This document shows positions 30,089 through 54,680 of a stretch of 64,000 nucleotides of DNA, one piece after another. Numbering within the stretch: position 1 is the stretch's first letter; each line of letters opens with the position of its first letter. The translations under genes and the position numbers were made by a program. The stretch is from Cryoendolithus antarcticus (lineage: Eukaryota > Ascomycota > Dothideomycetes > Cladosporiales > Cladosporiaceae), in assembly GCA_002077065.1 (NCBI GenBank), contig NAJO01000002.1, positions 1,178,001 to 1,242,000 of the forward strand. The letters run 5' to 3'. Under the pieces are notes generated by a model, which saw nothing but the letters and a program-made list of their open reading frames with translations, was not told the DNA's origin and did no database searches.

Positions 30089-32927
30089 TCATATCCCGTT
30101 CACCGGCCTCTCTCTGTACACATCGCCAGTAAGACTGATCTCATAGTCGACGTCCTTTCCCCTGCCTTTCTTCTCCAGCTCCCTCACAAGCGGCAGGATC
30201 TCCCGACCAAACTGCTCAATCTCCTCCTCATAATGCAGGAAAGCTGTTAGGATGATGCTCACGCCCAGCGACTTGAGCAGCACGATCCGATCAGCGATCT
30301 GCTCCTTGGTGCCGATGAGCTTCGTCTTGAACCTATCCTGCCTGTCAGCCGTCGTCCACGCGGGGTTTACAAGAACAATCAGCTTACCCATCATTATACT
30401 GCACCAAGTCCTCAAACTTGCTATTAGCCCACATCCCACTCTTATTTCCAGTACTCGCGCCTGCATTCTGCACTTGCTGCCGGAAGCCCTCAACAGCCTC
30501 AGCATCAGCCTTGCCTTGGATCTCTTGGAGCACGCGCACAGCCTCTTCTTCGGTGTCGCGGCAGATAACAAAGCCGTTCAGCGCGAACTTCACTTCGCCC
30601 TCACGGCCATGCACAACGGCGCGGGCCCTGACGTCGGCAATTTGCTTTCGAAAGCCTTCGAGAGTGTTGCCATTCATGCTTGGGAGTGTGTGAGCTGTTT
30701 ATCCAGAGGACTATGAAGTTAAAAGCAAGCGGAGGACTTACAAGTAGTAATCAGACACCGCGCCCCCATTATCCTTCGCATCATCACTATTACCTCCCTG
30801 GAAGATCTCCGGATATGGCCGTCCTGGTAAGACTAGCGGCTTCGGCTTGAGTGAGTAATCATGGAACTGGTAGAAGTCGCCCTTGAACGTGAATTTGTCT
30901 TCCGTCCAGATGCCCTTCAGACAGGAGATGAACTCCCGGCTTCTTCGATACCTTTCTGCATGATCAAGCCACCATTGCCCAATGCTCGTGAACTCCAGTT
31001 TGAACCAGCCTGACACGATGTTGACGGCCGCTCGACCATCGCTGAAGTGGTCGATCGAGGCAATCTGCTTGGCGGCCACTGCCGGGTTCCAGGGACCGGG
31101 CAGTAGGGCGATGATGAGCTTGAGTCTCTCTGTCTTAGCCAATAGTAAGGAACTCAATGTAACGGGTTCGTGTTGATTCTCCGCACCATAGCCAGCCATG
31201 AAGCGAATCTGGGAGAGGGCATACTCAAAGCCGACCCGCTCGGCAGTCTGGGCATACCGGATGTTCGCCTTATGGTCCCAGTTTGTCCGTTGCGGAATCT
31301 TACTGATCACCAGGCCACCAGAGACATTGGGAACCCAGTAAGCGAATTTGACACGGTCTGGATCAGCATTGATCTTGTCGTGGTAGCTCAGATCGGCGGC
31401 GCCGCTGTCGAAGGTGCCGTTGACTACAGGTGAGCGCAAGGGCGTGTTCGATCCGCTGTTGTTACGGCTGCGGTCGGTGCTGGCTACGGAGACGACGATA
31501 CGTCGACCACTGACGGTGCCTGAGCGAAGGCGATCGAGTGCGTCGTTGATTCCAGCCAAGCCACCCTCTGCGACTTCCACTTCTGGTAGCTTGAGGCTCT
31601 TAGCAATGAGAAGCTCTTCTAGCCACTCAACTAGTGCTTCGCCGACAGCTGCGTTCTCATGAAAGACTTTAATCGGCACTTTGTGGTGTACTACACCAGT
31701 CGCCACCTGCTTCGGCAGACCCGTCAAACCGAGCAGATGCGACTTGGCGCCCGATGAGTTCTGCTGTAGTGCCTCCTGGAGGCGCGTAGCAGTGTCATTT
31801 CCTACAGCATCGAAGCCGAATCGTAGCTGACCGCCCGTGACACCCTTCAGGATCTCGACCGCCCGCTTCTCGTCAAGCTTGTCGACGAGAAGATCTACAC
31901 CAAGTTCGTTCAGCCGCTGCGCTCCCTTCGCGAGGTCCGCAACGGCAGCGACCTTAAGACCAGCTAGCTTAGCCAGTTGTGCGACAAGCTGTCCAGTCGT
32001 GGTCGAAGCGCCCCAGACTGCAATCCACTCACCCGGTCGGGGTCGCTCCTGCTCTGAGATACCATGGAAGACCTCGTCTCTCACATCCTCAGCGACTTCA
32101 TGCTTCGGTAGGCTTCTCCCTGCGCGCAGAATGTCAGGTCCAGCCGATGCATGAGGCACACCTGAGAAGTCGACCCCGAGGCTGATCGTTAGTGACAGTG
32201 CGGCAGCGACGAAGGCGACTCCCAACGCAGCGCCTTCTTTAACTTCTACGCCCTGTGGCAGTCGAGCCACATTGCTGTCGCTCGTCACGACGTACTCCTG
32301 GTAAGCAGCCTTGCGCACGTCGCGGTAGTCGGTGCTTGGTCCGAAGACGACATCACCTTGACTGATGCGACTATGCTTCCTCGGCGCCTTCACAACAATA
32401 CCAGCAAAGTCTCGGCCATTGATCCATGGGTAGGACGGTTGCGAGAAGCCGTAGTCGGCGCCCTTCCAGTCTACTGGATTCAGTCCGATCGCGAGAACCT
32501 GCACCAGGATCTCATCGTCGCCTCGAAGCTCGGGGATCTCCTGCGAGTGCTCCAGAGAGTACTTTTGCCGAGGTCCATGCAGTAGAAGGAGATCTTGCTG
32601 GGGACGTGGTAGTCGTAGGAAGTCGTCTGACTTGTGCGTACCATTCACGCCATTAGTGCCGTTGGTTGTGGGTGCCGACTCCTGCGCCTTCGGGGCATCT
32701 GGCTGAACAGCAGCGTTCAGACTAGCAAAGCTGCGGTGCCCATTGCTTGTCTGCGAGTCCGCTGCACTCCTTGCACACTCCTGATCGGGCTTCAGCGACA
32801 CAAACTGCGAGTTTCCTACTCTAGTAGGCATCTTGAGCAGAACGACAGAAACAACCAAACAGAAAACTAGGATGAACAAAGACGCGTGAGGAGATGCAAG
32901 AAATTGTTCCAAACCCAAGTCACGCAT
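30089..32927 (-). CDS. Fusion: medium-chain reductase plus luciferase-like FMN monooxygenase
   Basis: The exons are 30742-32927, 30388-30678 and 30089-30341, with introns of 63 and 46 nt (all GT..AG, phases 2 and 2); the product is 909 residues. A hydrophobic segment at about 17-32 looks like an N-terminal membrane anchor. A zinc-independent medium-chain dehydrogenase/quinone-reductase domain (about 115-480) follows, with GRDFAGIVV and the nucleotide loop AVWGASTTTGQLVAQLAKLAG split around 303-323. A 40-residue Ser/Asn linker leads to a luciferase-like monooxygenase domain (about 525-909). That domain starts VKFAYWVPNVSGGLVISK and is close in pattern to bacterial dimethylsulfone monooxygenase SfnG. 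No Met precedes the second domain, so it cannot start independently. The frame reaches 32945 only via GTG. Confidence 0.85.
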
Positions 32928-35521: not shown

Positions 35522-36189
35522 ATGGCTTCAATCTTCCAGCGCCTGACGCGCCCTTTCACCTCCAGCACAATGCAATTTGCGCCCGGTCAGAGCGCCGCAT
35601 CAGCAATGAATGTTCCCGAGGGAGCGCAAAAATGCACGATTGCAGCCGGCTGCTTCTGGGGTGTTGAGCATATGTACCGAAAGGACTTTGGCAAGAAGGG
35701 TCTACTGGACGCACGAGTAGGCTACATCGGTGGCGACAGCAAGAACCCGAGCTATCGCGCAGTGTGCAGTGGAACGTCTGGTCGTGTGTATCTTGTGCGA
35801 TTGACTGATGCCGTTATACAGGTACTGACAGTTTCCCAGACGCCGAAGCCCTTCAAGTCGTCTTCGACCCGCAGCAAGTCTCCTACCGCACACTTCTCGA
35901 GTACTTCTACCGCATGCACGACCCCACGACCGCCAACCGACAAGGTCCCGACACCGGCTCCCAGTACCGTAGCGGGATCTTCTACCACTCTGACGAGCAG
36001 AAGTCTGTCGCGGAGGAGGTGACGAAGCAGGCGAACGAGAAGTGGTACAAGGGCAAGATCGTGACTGAGGTGCTGCCAGCTGGTGAATGGTGGGACGCGG
36101 AGAAGTACCATCAGCTGTACTTGGATCATAACCCGGGTGGGTATGAGTGCCCGAGCCACTTCTTGAGGACATTCCCGCCTCTTTCGTGA
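35522..36189 (+). CDS. MXR1: Peptide methionine sulfoxide reductase MsrA
   Basis: The exons are 35522-35783 and 35840-36189, separated by a 56-nt intron (GTGTGT..CCCAG) splitting a His codon; the product is 203 residues. The junction restores the family string VCSGTSGHAEALQVVFDP. The catalytic GCFWG motif is at 43-47 with nucleophile Cys44. MsrA reduces methionine-S-sulfoxide in proteins using thioredoxin. The N-terminus (MASIFQRLTRPFTSSTM) is basic, hydroxylated and free of acidic residues, so it resembles a mitochondrial presequence. Internal Met17 offers a shorter cytosolic form, though that is inference. No MsrB domain is fused. Confidence 0.95.
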
Positions 36190-47010: not shown

Positions 47011-50000
47011 CTAGGCCAAGTTGTCCGCCCTGTCCACCCACACATCCTCCATCTCGCCGAAAGCTTGGAAATGCACCGGCCGATGCAAGTCGTCATAGAA
47101 TCTCTTCGGCACACCCACGCCAACGAATACCCTCTGCTTCTCTCGCTCTCCGAACCCTGCACCCAAGAACCCCCAGTTCCACCTCTCATCCTCCGGCACA
47201 AGGAAGTAACCCCTAATCTTATCCGACAACAGCAACTGGCACTTCTCGCCGAAACTCTGGCTGAAACCAGCAGGCGCATCGGAGCCGAGATCCAGGTTCG
47301 AGGCGCCCCAGGTGTAGCCTGGAGGCGTGAGAGACCAGGCGGAGAGCGAGACAGAGCCGGGCGTGAAATTCACGAGGAGGGAGAGGGTCTTGCTGTCCCA
47401 GGATTCATGGGCGCGCATTAGGCGAGCGTGTTGGGTGACGTCGCTGGAGGGCATGAAGCGGCTTTCGTTACCGGCTGCTGTGTGGATGATGCCAAGTGGC
47501 TCTAGATCCTTGAGAAGCTCGTGCTCGGGCAGACGCGTGGGGAGCGTGACGTCGCGTGTGCCGCCGACTTGGGGAACCATGACTATAGTCTTGATCTCCT
47601 TGACGCGCGCGTTGTCTTTGGGCGACGTGCCGTACAAGTAGCCTGCGACTTGGATACGGAGATCCGAGATGGCGATGAAGCGCTTGAGGATGTTCTTCGG
47701 CATGACGTACGTGTAGTGGTCCTCGTCGTCGCGGATGTCGTCGCTGGAGATGTAGATGTTGTTGGCGCGGGTCCGCAAGTTGCTTGTCGCAATTGCTCTT
47801 GTCCGCCACTCAGTCTTTGAGGCGAAGGAAGCTTGCTCGTACTGACTGGTGGTCGTGACGACCATGTCCTCACCGTGCACATTCTGCGTCTTGGTTGTGA
47901 CGGCTGTCAGCTGTGCCTGCTCGAGCTGTTGCTTCTCGATCTCAGCAGCTTGCTGGCGCTGCATGCTCGGCGCTGAGATCTCCATACCCAGGATGATATC
48001 CCTAATCTCCGTGTTCGTGAGCGAGGAGGTGTTGACGTTGTTCTTCTTGCCATAGTCATTCAAGATCAGATCTCTGAGCTGCACTTCTACCTTCACCCAA
48101 TCGTCATCCGTCAGCGTCGGCCAGATATGATGCTCCTGCGTGATGACAGTCTTGTCCGGTCTGAGTAGTAGCTTGGTCTTGTCCTGATTGACGTGCAGCG
48201 CACGCAGAATCAAGATCAACCTGGAGAAAGCCGTGTACGACGAGATACTCTTCAGCCACTCGTCATACAGATTGAACAACACCATCTGCGGTTCGGTAGC
48301 GCGTAAGATCATGTCGCCCAGCTTCTCGACCTTCATCGCAGCCTGGAATGGCAGCTGTAGCTCTGACGCTCGGATACTGATGTTCGGGAAATCAAGCAAA
48401 TGCACTTCGAGCGGATCCAGCAGACCCTTGCGTGTGACGATCAGCTGCTTCGGCTGTTCTTCCACAGGCAGCGATCGGATCAGCGCAGCCACTTCTTCGG
48501 CAGTCTTCCACTTCGCCAACTGACCAAGACGCTTCTGCCCAGCCCAGACAGACGTGTGGATGATCTTTAAGAACAACTGTCCAGTTCTCGGGTTGAAGAT
48601 GAAGATCGCGCCATTGATGGGCTTAGTCGTCAAATTACCCTCGAAGGTCTTGTGAATAGTCACACGGTATACATTCGTGTCGTCGATGAACAGCTGAATT
48701 TGGTTGCTGAAAAGCTCAGAGTAGTTCTGCGAGTTAAGGAACTCCTGGCTGCTCTCCGAAGCGTACAGCTGCAGGCCTTTCCGGATGCGCTCTCGTAGAA
48801 CGTACAAGGCGGGGTTTGCTTTCATGACCTTAGCCATAGCTTGCTGCACGAGCTGCTTGAGACCGGGAAAATACTGCCCATACGCCGAGTATAGATTGTA
48901 CGCCAGATCGATACCGATCATGAGGCCGGTTGCTGAGGGGTAGATGCTCATTGAGTCAGTGGTGTAGTCCAAGTACTTCGCCCTTACGTATCGCTCGATA
49001 TCGTGCGAGTCGTAGTCTCCGTAACGTAGTTGCACATCAACCCAGAACTTGTTCGTCTGTGTCGCGCCCATGTTGTCTTTGGTATCATAGAGCAAGCTCG
49101 GGTTGCTGACGGACCACTTATGGCTTGCGAAGAGCAAGATGTCGGCGCAGGACGAGTTCATCTTGTAGCTCTTTCGGGGATGAATGGTCTCCTTCTGCAC
49201 CGTCTCGATGCCCAGCGCTTCCAGTTCTTGATCAAAGACTTGGCACAGATCCATTACCACTGATTCGTGGATCTTCTGCCACAAATGCGCGCGGAAGATC
49301 TGGATGAGCGAGATCTTGAGCGTCGGGATCTTGCCGTGGAGGAAGATACCTGTCAAGTCGAGCTGGACTTGAAAACCAACGTACACATTCGCTCTGGTAT
49401 GCATGTTAGCCTGCGGAGATATGGCAGATTGGATGGAGGGGAGAAATCATACCTGTTTATGGTGGGCGACCACCAGAGCGTGAAGCGACGATTGGGAATC
49501 TGGTTGAGACCAGATCGCTGAGCATTGGTCAACTTTTTGAACTTCATCGACTCTTCGAAACCACTGTTGTGCAGTACGAGACGATCGTGGCGGAGGTATA
49601 GCTGATCGCCATCCACGCGGAAGCCAGCCCACTTAGTCGATGTAGCCTCGAGGCTGATGTTTTCGATCGAATATCGGGTGTCATGCTTCGATGAAGAAAG
49701 CTCCGCAGCCTTGAACAGCTGGTGTCGTGCACGTTGACCGGTGGTCAGACTAGCGAAGTGTGCAGCGGTCATCTCGACGTAGTCGTACTGAACGACTCCA
49801 GTGTCGCATTCCGCATCAGTACTCGATGATCGGCGGGGCGCCTCGCGATGGAGAGACAAGATGTGGTTCGAGGTGACCACAAGGTCCTCCAAACCGCTGC
49901 CAAGCTTCATGCGGTACAAAGGCTCATCACCTTTGACGATGTTGAATGCCCTCCTGCAAGTGCCGTCGGGACCCATCAATTCGTCACCTTCGCCGACGTC

Positions 50001-53000
50001 TTCGACCTTTACTTCACTGCCGTCATGCCGTAGCAGTCGCGTTCCATAAGCCAAACAAGCCTTCTCCCAGAAGAGGCCTTCCCAGGATGGAAAAGCAGTC
50101 GCCTTGAACAGCGTATGCTCAAGTATGGTCTCCACACCGCCCAACGCCTGAATAACATCCGTCCTGTAAGCATTGAGATTCCACAGCTTACCATCATGCC
50201 TTCCACTCGTCCACCAGAACGGATTACTCTTCATATGCTGATACACTTTGAACTCCGTCCGAGCCCTGAAGCCCTTGTCAAAGCTCAAAGTGCTGCGATC
50301 CTTCTGAAACAACGTGTTGATACGCGGTAGCCCACGATCCCAGGAGTCTTCCAAATCTTCGAGAGTAAGACGGCGGTTCTGCTGGTTAGCTTCGAGGCGC
50401 TTTTGAGAGTACTCCGTCCACACGCGTTGTGAGTCAACGAACTCAGCTTCCCAGGGTATGATGTAGCGGAAGATGTTCGGGATCAAGGTCTCATCGTCGT
50501 GGCCCATGCCAGCGCGGTAATGCGTTACGCCAGTATCAGTCTGCTTCGACCAGCGCTTGTCGGACGTGGGGATCAAGATGTGACTGCCGGAGATCATGCC
50601 CAGACCACCGAGTTCCTTGGGCGTGTAGAAGACTGCAGGCGGGAAACGAGAGGGCATCTTGGAGTTCAGACCAATTTTCACGCGAGTCTGGATCTTGGTC
50701 TCGCACTTGACGATCGTGTCAAGAAGGTTGACGGTGCTAACTGCGGCTTCGCGGTAGTAGGTGAAGAGCGCGATGAGAGTCGTGTTCCATTTGTTGGCGA
50801 TCTTGGTGAACGTTGTGCTGCCTGATGACATGAGAATTTGGCGGATGCGGTTGTTGAACTTTGCCACATCGTCTTCGGTGACCTGCAGGAAGGCGTGCGC
50901 AGTACGCTCCTTGGTGCTGTTGTCGACTAGACTCCAGACCGAGTCTTTGACCGGGAATTCATCTGCCGCATTGCGAAGCTTGGGCAGGATGCGGACTTCA
51001 AACCCATTCATCGCGAAAAGCAAGTTCGGGTTGTCGCGCGAGTAGACTGACGCGAAGGTGTCGTCCCACTCTATGGTCGTCAAGCTTCGCGGCAGTCTAT
51101 TCTTCATATCCCAGAATACTGCCCTGCCGAGATTGACATCATGGCGCATCAATCGCATGCGACTGTCGCGAGGCCAGCACTTCTTGTTCTTGTACCCGAT
51201 CACATTCTCAAAGTTCGGATCCGGCTGCTCTGTCAAGAATCGCTGGATCAAATCGCGGGACTCATCAGCAGAGAAACGGAAGAAGATCCAGATCTTGTCG
51301 ATGTAGCGAGTGTACAAGCGGATAGGGTGGCGACTCTCAGTCGCCCGGTCGCGGAACTGCAAGAAGTCGTTGGGCGCGTTCGGTGGCCCGGCGATTTCAC
51401 TGGCGCGCTGCAGGCCGAGCAGCAAGAGATCGATAATCAGACCGTAGTACTGGAACACGAAAGCCGAGAACTGTAGACCCCGAATCATACCGTAGGCGTT
51501 CGTATGGTCCATGTCCTTGTAATTGAGTTGCACGTTGTTCTTCGACGAGATGTAGTCTGCCAAATTGTGATCCATGATCAACCGCAGCAATCTGTTGAGC
51601 AATGTGATGTCGATCTTCTCGTAGACCTTGTCCAGCCGAGTCTCGAGCATGACATTGCACTCGCCCTCATCGATAGACCAGACATTCGACAAGTTGTTGA
51701 TACCTTGCGCCCACTTGTACGTGAGCAGTGGCGGCACTTCACTATCAGATGGCTTGATCCAGGCAGGGAACAGGCGGCGCTGATCAGCCTGGTACCATAA
51801 GTACTGATCGAGATAGGCATCGGTGATCTTTTCGATGGGCTCAATGTCGTACACCGGATTGATGTTGCTGTAATTGTCGTTCATGTCAATGCCGACCTCT
51901 TTGAACGCGCGCTGCGTGAGCAAGAAGCGCTTGATGCGTGCCAGCGTTGTGCCAGGACTATCGTAGGCCTGCTCGATCAGTGCGAGCTCTTCTCGTTGAC
52001 TCTGATTTAGTCGACCCTTGACGCTGTATGCCTCTCGAAGTCGCTCGAGCGCTAGGATCAGGATCTTCGTGTCGTGCTTGTAGCTGACCGAAGGGAAGGG
52101 GATGGGCTGATACTTTCGGCTTTCTAGCCAATGCACAGCAGTAGTGAAGATCGCGACACCCTCCTCGGTGCTGACATATGGACCATCCTTGAGGTAGTTG
52201 TGCTGCCTCTCTTGCTCAGCCTTGAGCCATAGCCGCGTAAGGCGACCCAAGTTCTTCTTCGCAACAGTCTTGTCGACAGTCGCACCGCGCCTGATACGCT
52301 CGCGATTGTAGTGCGCAACAGACACCCACCAGTCTGCCTTACTCTTCACATACCGCAAGATAATATCCTCGATCGGCTTGGGCAGACCAGGCACCTTCCA
52401 TGGGATATTCGACTTCCAGCATCGCCAAGCCTCACTCAGATGTTGCAGCACTGTGTTGACCTTGCTCTGCTTGATACCCTCGGGCATCATATCCATCAAG
52501 TCAGCCATGACAGACGCACGCAGCTCGAGATCGAAATGCGACTCGACTCGCTGCTTCGTCACCGTCTTCGCCACACCTTTGCTGTGACGCCCCTCGAACT
52601 GTCTGCTGAGCAAGTTACCCAGCCATCGCTCAAGCAAAGGGATGATTCCGCGCAAGAAGAACAGCCAGACTCGCCACGCTGGTGCCCAGAAACCGCACCC
52701 TGGTCCCTTGCCGACAGGTCCGGAGTTGAAGCGGTAGTAGATCAAATGCTTCAGGTCCTTGCATTGGCGAATCTGGTGCATAAGCTTGTACTTGTAGCGG
52801 TACATGCCTGTCAGCTGACCAACATGATTGAATGCATACAAGATGCCGTCTGCAAGCTGGAAGGCATCAATGTTGCCAAGTCTGTATTGCACTTGCGCGT
52901 CAACAATTAGCTTGGTCAGACGGAGGATCTCACGCATTAGGTGGAAGGCATTGCCGAATCGGGACTTCTTGCGCTCCTTTGTCGTCAGCGTCTTGATAGG

Positions 53001-54680
53001 CTTCAAGTTAAAGTTGTAGTCCAGATGCAAGTAAGTCAAGTTCTTGCGATGGATGAGCAAGTTCAGCATATTGAAGCCTTGCCTGCAGACTTGTAATCCA
53101 GCCTCCACCCAATCGATAGTGGTCTGTTGGAAGAACTTCGTGCTCTTCAGACTGCGACACAGGTTCTGCTTGTTTTGTGCTTTAGCAGGCTTCTTGTGCA
53201 GCTCGTTCAGGACGAACGTCTTGAGCATCTTCTGATACGAGACCCGCACCTTCACAGGCTGACCTCCAGGCACGTGCTCAAGATACCATTGCTTCACAAG
53301 CGGTACATCTTGTGCTCTTACCATCTTGCCAGATCGGCGGTCGAATGGGTATGGTGCCCACCACAGCGCGATAGCCGCAGATGTGTCCTGATTGGCAAGG
53401 TCCTCGTCGTTTAGAAATGGCTCGACCTCATCAGGAAGACTGAATCCAACACCGCCTTCCTCATCGTCCGGCTCCTCGTTATTGCCCTGGCCAAATATCT
53501 CGTCCTCGTGGCTGACGGTCAGGTTCTTCGGTGCCACTGATCTCGATGAAATAGGATTGATCGCAGAGTCGAAGTAGAACGCAGGTAAGCTCGGGTCTTC
53601 AGTCTTGAGGTAGACGCATTGTGGGTATGAGTAAATTCCAAGCTTCACGCTCCGAGGCAAGCTGTTGTATAGATATGGAAATGCCACCTTGTACTCTGTC
53701 CGGATGGGTGATCGAAAGATGATGCGGTCGATGGCATTGAACTCGCCAAAGTCCTCGTCGTTCGGATCGACATCCTTGTATAGAGGCTCAAAGCGAGGTC
53801 CACCAGGTATTGCCACATTCAGTGCCTTTGCAGTGGCGAAACCCGGTAGGTCGAAGAGATGGAAGTAGTTCTTGTCGACGATGTCTGATAACAGCGGATC
53901 ACTGAGCCGGTGTAATGCAGCCATCTGCGGGAGTGACAGGTTCCACTCCTTGTAGCCCGGCCCGTTGACATGGCTCGTATCCGACAGCGGTCTGTGATCA
54001 TAGAACCAGTCAAACACAGCCTCGTCCTCCTCCTCATCGAGCTCCATCTGTATCGGCTCCAGTGGCTCAACATCCTCGATGTTTTCCGACCAGCTCAGAG
54101 GCGGCTCCTCATCATCAAATGGTGGGAACCGCATCCTCTTGAAATGTCTCCGATCGCTCTTCTCCCTCCTCATGGCCACCCACATCGTCGCCCACTGCGC
54201 ATGAAATACCGGCTCGATCACCCTCGGGATCTCATTGACGAGCGTCAAGCACCCGTTAACGTGGTACAACACCTTCACCTCCCGCGCAGACTCCCAAGGC
54301 ATCGGCATATTTTCCAGCAACTTCAGCACGGCATGCGGCATGAACTTCAGCGCGCCGAGGTAGCTACGCTTATCGCTGCTGAACTTCTTCTGCGAGACGT
54401 CGCCAATGTCCTTAACGATCTTGCGCAAGTGCTCAGGCGGCATGTCGACTTTCTGGGTCTCGACGAAGCCGCCGCGACGCTTTTCGGCGAAGCGACGGCG
54501 TTGCATGCCTAGCCATTCCTTCTTCTTGGCCTGCTTCTTCGCGAGCTCAGGATCGATGGGGGCGGAGCGGAAGCCCGGTGGGGGAGGTGGAGGAATGCCT
54601 GCTGATGATAGTCCTGGAGGCGCGCCTGGCGGTGGAGGAGGTTGCCATCCTGGTGGTGGTGGTGGAGGAATGCCCGCCAT
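47011..54680 (-). CDS. PRP8: Pre-mRNA-splicing factor Prp8, intein-containing
   Basis: The exons are 49453-54680 and 47011-49393, with a single 59-nt intron (GTATGA..CCAG) that restores [19 protein letters not shown]. The precursor is 2536 residues, of which 164 are an intein. Prp8 is the central scaffold of the U5 snRNP and cradles the spliceosomal RNA active site. The N-terminus is proline/glycine-rich, then come the highly conserved N-terminal domain ([20 protein letters not shown]), the RT-like and endonuclease-like core ([20 protein letters not shown]), the RNase-H-like region and the C-terminal JAB1/MPN domain. The start at 54680 is an ATG. After excision the host protein would be about 2372 residues, the normal size. 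Excision joins WEKA to [10 protein letters not shown]. Confidence 0.97.
49566..50057 (-). mobile_element. PRP8 mini-intein, 164 residues
   Basis: An in-frame protein-splicing element interrupts Prp8 between GLFWEKA and [10 protein letters not shown], the site known as PRP8-a in other fungi. It occupies precursor residues 1542-1705. It starts with Cys1 (CLAYGTRLL, block A), has the block B motif TSNH (Thr62 to His65) and ends [10 protein letters not shown] with penultimate His163 and Asn164 followed by host Ser+1. All residues expected for splicing are present. Between about residues 72 and 125 there is only a short linker, and no LAGLIDADG endonuclease motif is seen, so this is a mini-intein that cannot home by itself. 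No intron interrupts it. Confidence 0.95.

Follow-up and report, generated by a model that had tools for sequence, protein, structure and literature searches.

Can a fungal sulfone monooxygenase and a reductase be made as one protein, and what would the reductase do for its neighbour? The question is raised by a gene in a 64,000-nucleotide stretch (the window) of Cryoendolithus antarcticus contig NAJO01000002.1. All coordinates below are positions in the window. The gene lies on the minus strand at 30089–32927 and encodes 906 residues in a long exon 1 and two short exons. A medium-chain dehydrogenase/reductase (MDR) domain is followed by an SfnG-type monooxygenase domain dependent on flavin mononucleotide (FMN). 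What is new here is that an SfnG enzyme is fused to an MDR as its partner and may also have a membrane anchor. No description of an MDR–SfnG fusion was found in the open-licence PMC literature.

Gene model and conservation of the fusion

The initial annotation, made from the DNA letters, had a single exon join an anchor, the MDR domain and the start of the SfnG domain, with no methionine just before the latter. Both points hold, with a hydrophobic N-terminus as the putative anchor. The minus-strand frame opens with the ATG at 32927 and is uninterrupted and stop-free as far as the splice donor GTAAGT at 30741, and its coding part, 32927–30742, holds 57% of the SfnG domain. The methionines of the spliced model are at 1, 33, 577, 730 and 811, none near the second-domain start, and residues 34–576 are Met-free in a single open frame.

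The annotated C. antarcticus protein B0A48_01209 (P0001) agrees with this model at 100% identity over 96% of the query. It begins at Met33 and has 874 residues, so the anchor is encoded in the DNA but absent from the deposited protein. It reads QYNDG and then FKTK, which sets the start of exon 3 at 30332. The Pfam, NCBIfam and several similarity searches used a model with three extra residues, its intron-2 acceptor being 9 nt early. Pfam places ADH_N at residues 136–224, ADH_zinc_N at 312–406 and Bac_luciferase from 551.

The C. antarcticus genome (46.97 Mb) has a second copy of the fusion gene on contig C1, the window copy being on C62. Spliced at the same exon borders, copy 2 encodes a fused protein of 905 residues without inner stop, its linker being one codon shorter. 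Identity between the copies is 37.7% in intron 1, 63.2% in intron 2 and 84–91% in the coding segments. The ratio of nonsynonymous to synonymous substitution (dN/dS) is 0.017 for the MDR (378 codons), 0.024 for the SfnG (364 codons) and 0.10 for the linker (35 codons). These ratios indicate that both halves are under strong purifying selection.

Relatives of the whole protein were taken as the best 120 of 162 matches. Of these 120, 118 have 120 or more residues of both domains, the exceptions being P0112 with 59 SfnG residues and P0119 (Thelotrema) with no MDR. A stricter set, with at least 200 MDR and at least 150 SfnG residues, keeps 58 relatives, 40 of them nearly complete in both domains. 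The MDR comes first in all 58, and the linker is Met-free in 48.

The holders include Zymoseptoria, Fulvia, Zasmidium, Neofusicoccum, Diplodia, Elasticomyces and Peltaster, the lichens Teloschistes, cf. Caloplaca and Polycauliona, and also Chrysothrix and Coniocarpon. We take the first seven to be Dothideomycetes and the last two Arthoniomycetes.

Could two genes have been misread as one, with a cryptic intron or stop between MDR and SfnG? Separate SfnG entries do exist for the fused genes of Saccharata, Phyllosticta citricarpa, Polychaeton and Mycena maculata. However, these four begin within the MDR tail (SG[KR]RIVV) and so appear to be fusions that gene finders have cut. P0053 (Chaetothyriales) and P0120 (Sporobolomyces, a basidiomycete) have no linker and look like tandem genes, MDR first, that a gene finder joined by a predicted intron. 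Against these stand the single Met-free frame of the window copy, the fused copy 2 with its shorter linker and the fused reading frames of many species, and a misreading is very improbable.

A gene split or an assembly error is ruled out by copy 2, P0001 and the many fused relatives. This comparison of sequences confirms the fusion as genuine, as had been claimed at the outset, and shows it to be conserved. Its homologues are not always two separate genes, fused ones being present in many species.

The genome matches often come in pairs, as in a duplicated or hybrid genome, the fusion copies having 95% protein identity. The literature search found no paper on genome duplication in C. antarcticus.

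Table 1. Features of the fusion gene and its upstream region, by window position
Feature	Position	Strand	Basis or remark
Exon 1	30742..32927	-	Putative anchor, disordered N-terminus, MDR, linker and first 57% of SfnG domain; open frame and splice model; matches P0001 from residue 33
Intron 1	30679..30741	-	63 bp, GTAAGT...AAG; splice model and P0001
Exon 2, SfnG domain	30388..30678	-	Splice model and P0001
Intron 2	30333..30387	-	55 bp; acceptor fixed by P0001 and conserved NDGFKT motif
Exon 3, SfnG end, tail and stop	30089..30332	-	Splice model, P0001 and copy 2
Putative N-terminal hydrophobic anchor, residues 1-32, long form only	32832..32927	-	Hydropathy and relatives
Second in-frame ATG, Met33, start of P0001	32829..32831	-	Conserved MPS..SPF.SL.PD..CGR
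MDR domain, residues 105-486	31470..32615	-	Zinc motif absent; LovC/quinone-reductase-like
Linker, residues 487-521, Met-free	31365..31469	-	Splice model
SfnG-type FMN monooxygenase domain, residues 522-885	30155..31364	-	Spread over exons 1-3
Upstream open reading frame of 46 codons	33000..33140	-	In DNA-conserved 5' region; open with 46 codons in copy 2; resembles annotated N-terminus of P0002 (Oleoguttula)

The two halves and the role of the MDR domain

The C-terminal half had been proposed to be an SfnG-type FMN monooxygenase, and its score of 557.6 bits to NCBIfam SfnG (TIGR04021), against an equivalog cut-off of 382.95, bears this out. It has the TIM-barrel fold of SfnG and 59% identity to Pseudomonas-type SfnG structures (PDB 8t0u, 8t0w). 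The FMN-site residues H123, R126, Y127 and N104 of MsuD align with its H656, R659, Y660 and N636, the positions of MsuD S177 and S178 being Asn and Ser, respectively. It is thus like SfnG in score, fold and aligned FMN-site residues. Unlike the Pseudomonas SfnG, it is fused to an MDR, has a putative membrane anchor in its long form and comes from a genome with no MsuE or SsuE detected.

The N-terminal half scores 44 bits to ADH_N (cut-off 23.5) and 37.1 bits to ADH_zinc_N (cut-off 31.8). Its closest folds are enoyl and quinone reductases (PDB 3b70, 1yb5), with 25% identity to LovC. GRD replaces GHE, which we take to be the catalytic zinc site motif of zinc alcohol dehydrogenases, in all 48 covered rows of the 51 aligned. 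The lysine of NPxD[WY]K is kept in all 46 covered rows of these 51, whether fused, paired or unpaired. Lys155, kept in 46 of 46, aligns with LovC Lys54, and Ala aligns with LovC Thr139.

This half therefore resembles the LovC-type trans-enoyl reductases and the quinone oxidoreductases in the MDR fold, the absent zinc motif, the GxxT-kind nucleotide loop and the Lys54 equivalent. It departs from LovC in its low identity, the loss of Thr139, its SfnG partner and the fact that no polyketide synthase is seen in the fusion protein. K54, T139 and G282 are said to influence enoyl reduction by LovC in a passage that is unclear about these sites (PMC11943018). A coenzyme choice read from Asp331 was dropped; the NAD-binding Asp aligns one position earlier.

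An AlphaFold model of the anchor-free P0001 (874 residues, 42 sequences) has a predicted local distance difference test score (pLDDT) of 69 and a predicted template modelling score (pTM) of 0.47. It served for fold assignment only and is silent on how the domains meet.

Searches with each half covered the best 120 of 5698 and the best 120 of 542 matches. Among the matches listed, eight fungi have MDR and SfnG as separate genes with equally long contigs: Xylogone, Stipitochalara, Phlyctema, Mollisiaceae, Hymenoscyphus, Drepanopeziza, Chaenotheca and Candelaria. The last five of the eight have consecutive locus tags for both halves. Adjacency rests here on locus tags and equal-length contigs, and says nothing on gene order or strand. 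Polychaeton and Mycena galericulata (equal-length contigs, cut models) and Phyllosticta capitalensis (partial models, unequal lengths) were left out of the count, and Diplocarpon, with halves on contigs of unequal lengths, was not counted as a pair.

The halves in the eight are related to those of the fusion but are two proteins, the SfnG with its own N-terminus and the MDR with its own end. That the halves are fused in some fungi and adjacent in others supports their functional coupling, and the link between them that the initial annotation had drawn gains from this pattern.

Taken as a whole, apart from the FMN step and the anchor, the gene probably encodes a coupled bifunctional sulfone monooxygenase for sulfur scavenging. 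The C-terminal half would use FMNH2 to cleave a small sulfone, such as dimethyl sulfone, at a C–S bond into a sulfinate and an aldehyde, a reaction expected from the family. The N-terminal half would be a zinc-motif-free, NAD(P)H-binding MDR and, because of the fusion and the gene adjacency, a dedicated partner of the SfnG half. The long form would be held in the membrane by its N-terminal helix with both domains cytosolic, to judge from the charges around the helix.

The sulfur role fits Exophiala spinifera, in which the gene numbers of SfnG and of a DszC-like gene lie next to each other (PMC11778650). PF08028 (MsuC/DszC-like) has 21 matches in the C. antarcticus genome, of which the best looks by eye like an ordinary acyl-CoA dehydrogenase and gives no candidate for the sulfinate step.

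What would the MDR half do? Its likeliest single role, still a tentative one, is to reduce FMN in cis with electrons from NAD(P)H, in place of the bacterial MsuE. MsuE/SsuE-type NAD(P)H:FMN reductases gave no match in the genome (TIGR03566, TIGR03567), which may be incomplete and was searched with introns unspliced, whereas the same profiles match in 9 and 11 of 14 control genomes. This absence favours the MDR as an in-cis FMN reductase.

Several points weigh against it. The medium-chain dehydrogenase fold is not known to reduce free flavin. Neither profile nor fold evidence marks the MDR half as a flavin reductase, its fold being LovC/quinone-reductase-like, and no MDR flavin reductase turned up in the literature listings. 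Other flavin-reductase families are present in the genome. The fuller version, a membrane-tethered self-sufficient sulfone monooxygenase in which the MDR fold takes the place of MsuE and passes FMNH2 on to SfnG in one chain, is rather unlikely.

Alternatively, the MDR may reduce a C=C or C=O bond, either of the sulfur compound before the SfnG step or of the released aldehyde, while a separate flavin reductase supplies FMNH2. The enoyl and quinone reductase folds, the lysine kept at the LovC Lys54 position and the other flavin-reductase families all favour such processing of substrate or product. However, a zinc-motif-free MDR is to our knowledge no obvious formaldehyde reductase, and LovC Thr139 is replaced by Ala. 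The bacterial dimethyl sulfone pathway, as described in part of one source, has no such step (PMC8234197). We regard this role as possible without favouring it.

The MDR could also be a non-catalytic scaffold or stabiliser, a neighbour gene fused by chance and kept for folding, oligomerisation or anchoring. The much diverged MDR part of P0113 (Elsinoe) and the altered nucleotide loop of P0235 (Mycena galericulata) would suit this. The MDR dN/dS between the two copies, the invariant GRD and the invariant NPxD[WY]K lysine speak against it, and a scaffold is improbable.

Transfer of electrons to FMN in cis would recall StyA2B, a fused two-component monooxygenase with reductase and flavin-using oxygenase in one chain. 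The single-chain principle would be the same; the folds differ in both halves, and the reductase role is only proposed here.

With the halves both fused and conserved as a gene pair, a candidate SfnG partner can be named, and one protein suffices to test the question. Flavin reductases would gain a new fold if the MDR supplies FMNH2. If the whole is a self-sufficient tethered system, it would represent a new flavin reductase class and the first fused SfnG system, as far as we found. If the MDR does not supply FMNH2, it would point to an undescribed step in sulfone use.

The holders of the fusion, among them what we take to be a rock-dwelling fungus, lichens and plant-associated fungi, bear by their range on the use of organic sulfur by terrestrial fungi. 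In the parts of a 2018 review that bear on this, genetic and biochemical characterisation of the fungal FMNH2-dependent sulfur monooxygenases was still to come, and the FMN reductases conserved in fungi had no sulfur role demonstrated yet (PMC5857272).

History of the fusion

The trees were built by maximum likelihood in quick mode, with support from the Shimodaira–Hasegawa-like approximate likelihood-ratio test (SH-aLRT) only. The SfnG tree has 86 domains and separates the fungal rows, as a single clade, from 26 bacterial rows (SH-aLRT 99). A group within the fungi unites the fused rows, the cut models and Thelotrema (83) but leaves out P0053 and P0120. After P0120 had been taken out, a clade of 26 fused or cut SfnG rows that did not include P0053 and Thelotrema was not rejected by the approximately unbiased (AU) test (p-AU 0.78), a result compatible with one origin but no proof of it.

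The MDR tree (51 rows) is divided by a branch (93) that sets 29 rows, namely the pairs, Eurotiales and others, P0053 and P0120, apart from the remaining fused rows and Mycena. Its details are unsure with several long branches, above all that of Elsinoe P0113.

No MDR relative was found in bacterial SfnG loci (tblastn at E 1e-3 with two MDR queries, 80 of 582 loci, flanks up to 6 kb). These MDR-free flanks speak against a bacterial operon origin of the MDR–SfnG pair within the 80 loci covered. Together with the single fungal SfnG clade and the introns in the gene, they make it most likely that the fusion was built inside fungi. One fusion from an older adjacent fungal gene pair fits these sequence data best. 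The initial suggestion that a recent bacterial transfer built the gene finds no support in the same three results. SfnG itself may be of ancient bacterial origin.

Two basidiomycetes, Mycena maculata and M. galericulata, seem to carry the fusion in the form of cut models: the start of P0132 lies in the MDR tail, and the contigs of P0198 and P0235 are equal in length. The SfnG of both species and the MDR of M. galericulata nest with Botryosphaeriales-type Dothideomycetes, so the fusion may have crossed from one fungal phylum to another, or there may be contamination.

The Elsinoe fawcettii protein P0113 has 1237 residues. Its MDR part is strongly diverged with repeated inserts seen by eye, and its SfnG part is well conserved.

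The N-terminal segment and the start site

Is the long form membrane-anchored, as first proposed? The hydrophobic segment spans residues 15–31, with a best 17-residue hydropathy of 3.1. By their starts, the 120 relatives fall into 42 beginning at the later Met, 32 extended upstream and 46 without a recognisable motif. Scored for a 17-residue window with hydropathy of at least 1.6 before the conserved Met, all 32 extended relatives (31 distinct N-termini) have one. As a control, 1270 of 20000 random 42-residue open stretches of the window (6.4%) reach the same value. The extended relatives come mostly from metagenomes, with Pseudocercospora and Fulvia among them, and a motif like W...DPSP.AL is frequent in their N-termini. 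P0100, one of the 46, also has a hydrophobic helix.

Against an anchor, P0002 (Oleoguttula), the closest relative with 91% identity, is extended upstream by a stretch that is not hydrophobic, and 13 other relatives among the 46, including lichen and Arthoniomycete ones, begin without a hydrophobic helix. Thus, the hydrophobic N-terminus stands in the DNA and in the extended relatives, while its use as a membrane anchor is put in doubt by these proteins and by P0001, which starts after it.

Between the two copies, the 32 anchor codons have 2 synonymous and 7 nonsynonymous changes, giving a dN/dS of 1.18 with low dS. Codons with a synonymous change number 2 of 32 in the anchor, 13 of 74 in the N-terminal disordered stretch, 4 of 35 in the linker and 141 of 378 in the MDR, the anchor having far fewer than the MDR (Fisher p 0.00016). 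The 373 bases upstream are 79% identical between the copies. The few synonymous changes and this upstream identity suggest that the anchor stretch may also hold a regulatory signal.

The stretch may instead be an artefact from the 5' untranslated region. The Met33 start of P0001, the high dN/dS with low dS, the different N-terminus of P0002 and the anchorless relatives would all agree with this, but the relatives with long hydrophobic N-termini argue against it.

The upstream 46-codon frame could have a regulatory role as an upstream open reading frame, or it could be an alternative first exon whose use removes the anchor. The N-terminus may thus be any of three: from the start at 32927, from Met33 and from a P0002-like upstream sequence. 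No exact CYS3 or MetR site is present upstream in either copy. One E-box is found in the window copy and none in copy 2, and a single-mismatch ATGTTGCCAT is at -53 in both.

Two other genes of the window were seen by eye. A methionine sulfoxide reductase A-like gene is at 35522–36022 on the plus strand, ~2.6 kb upstream of the fusion. A PRP8-like reading frame at ~49353–54680 on the minus strand has an intein-like insertion near its C-terminal end.
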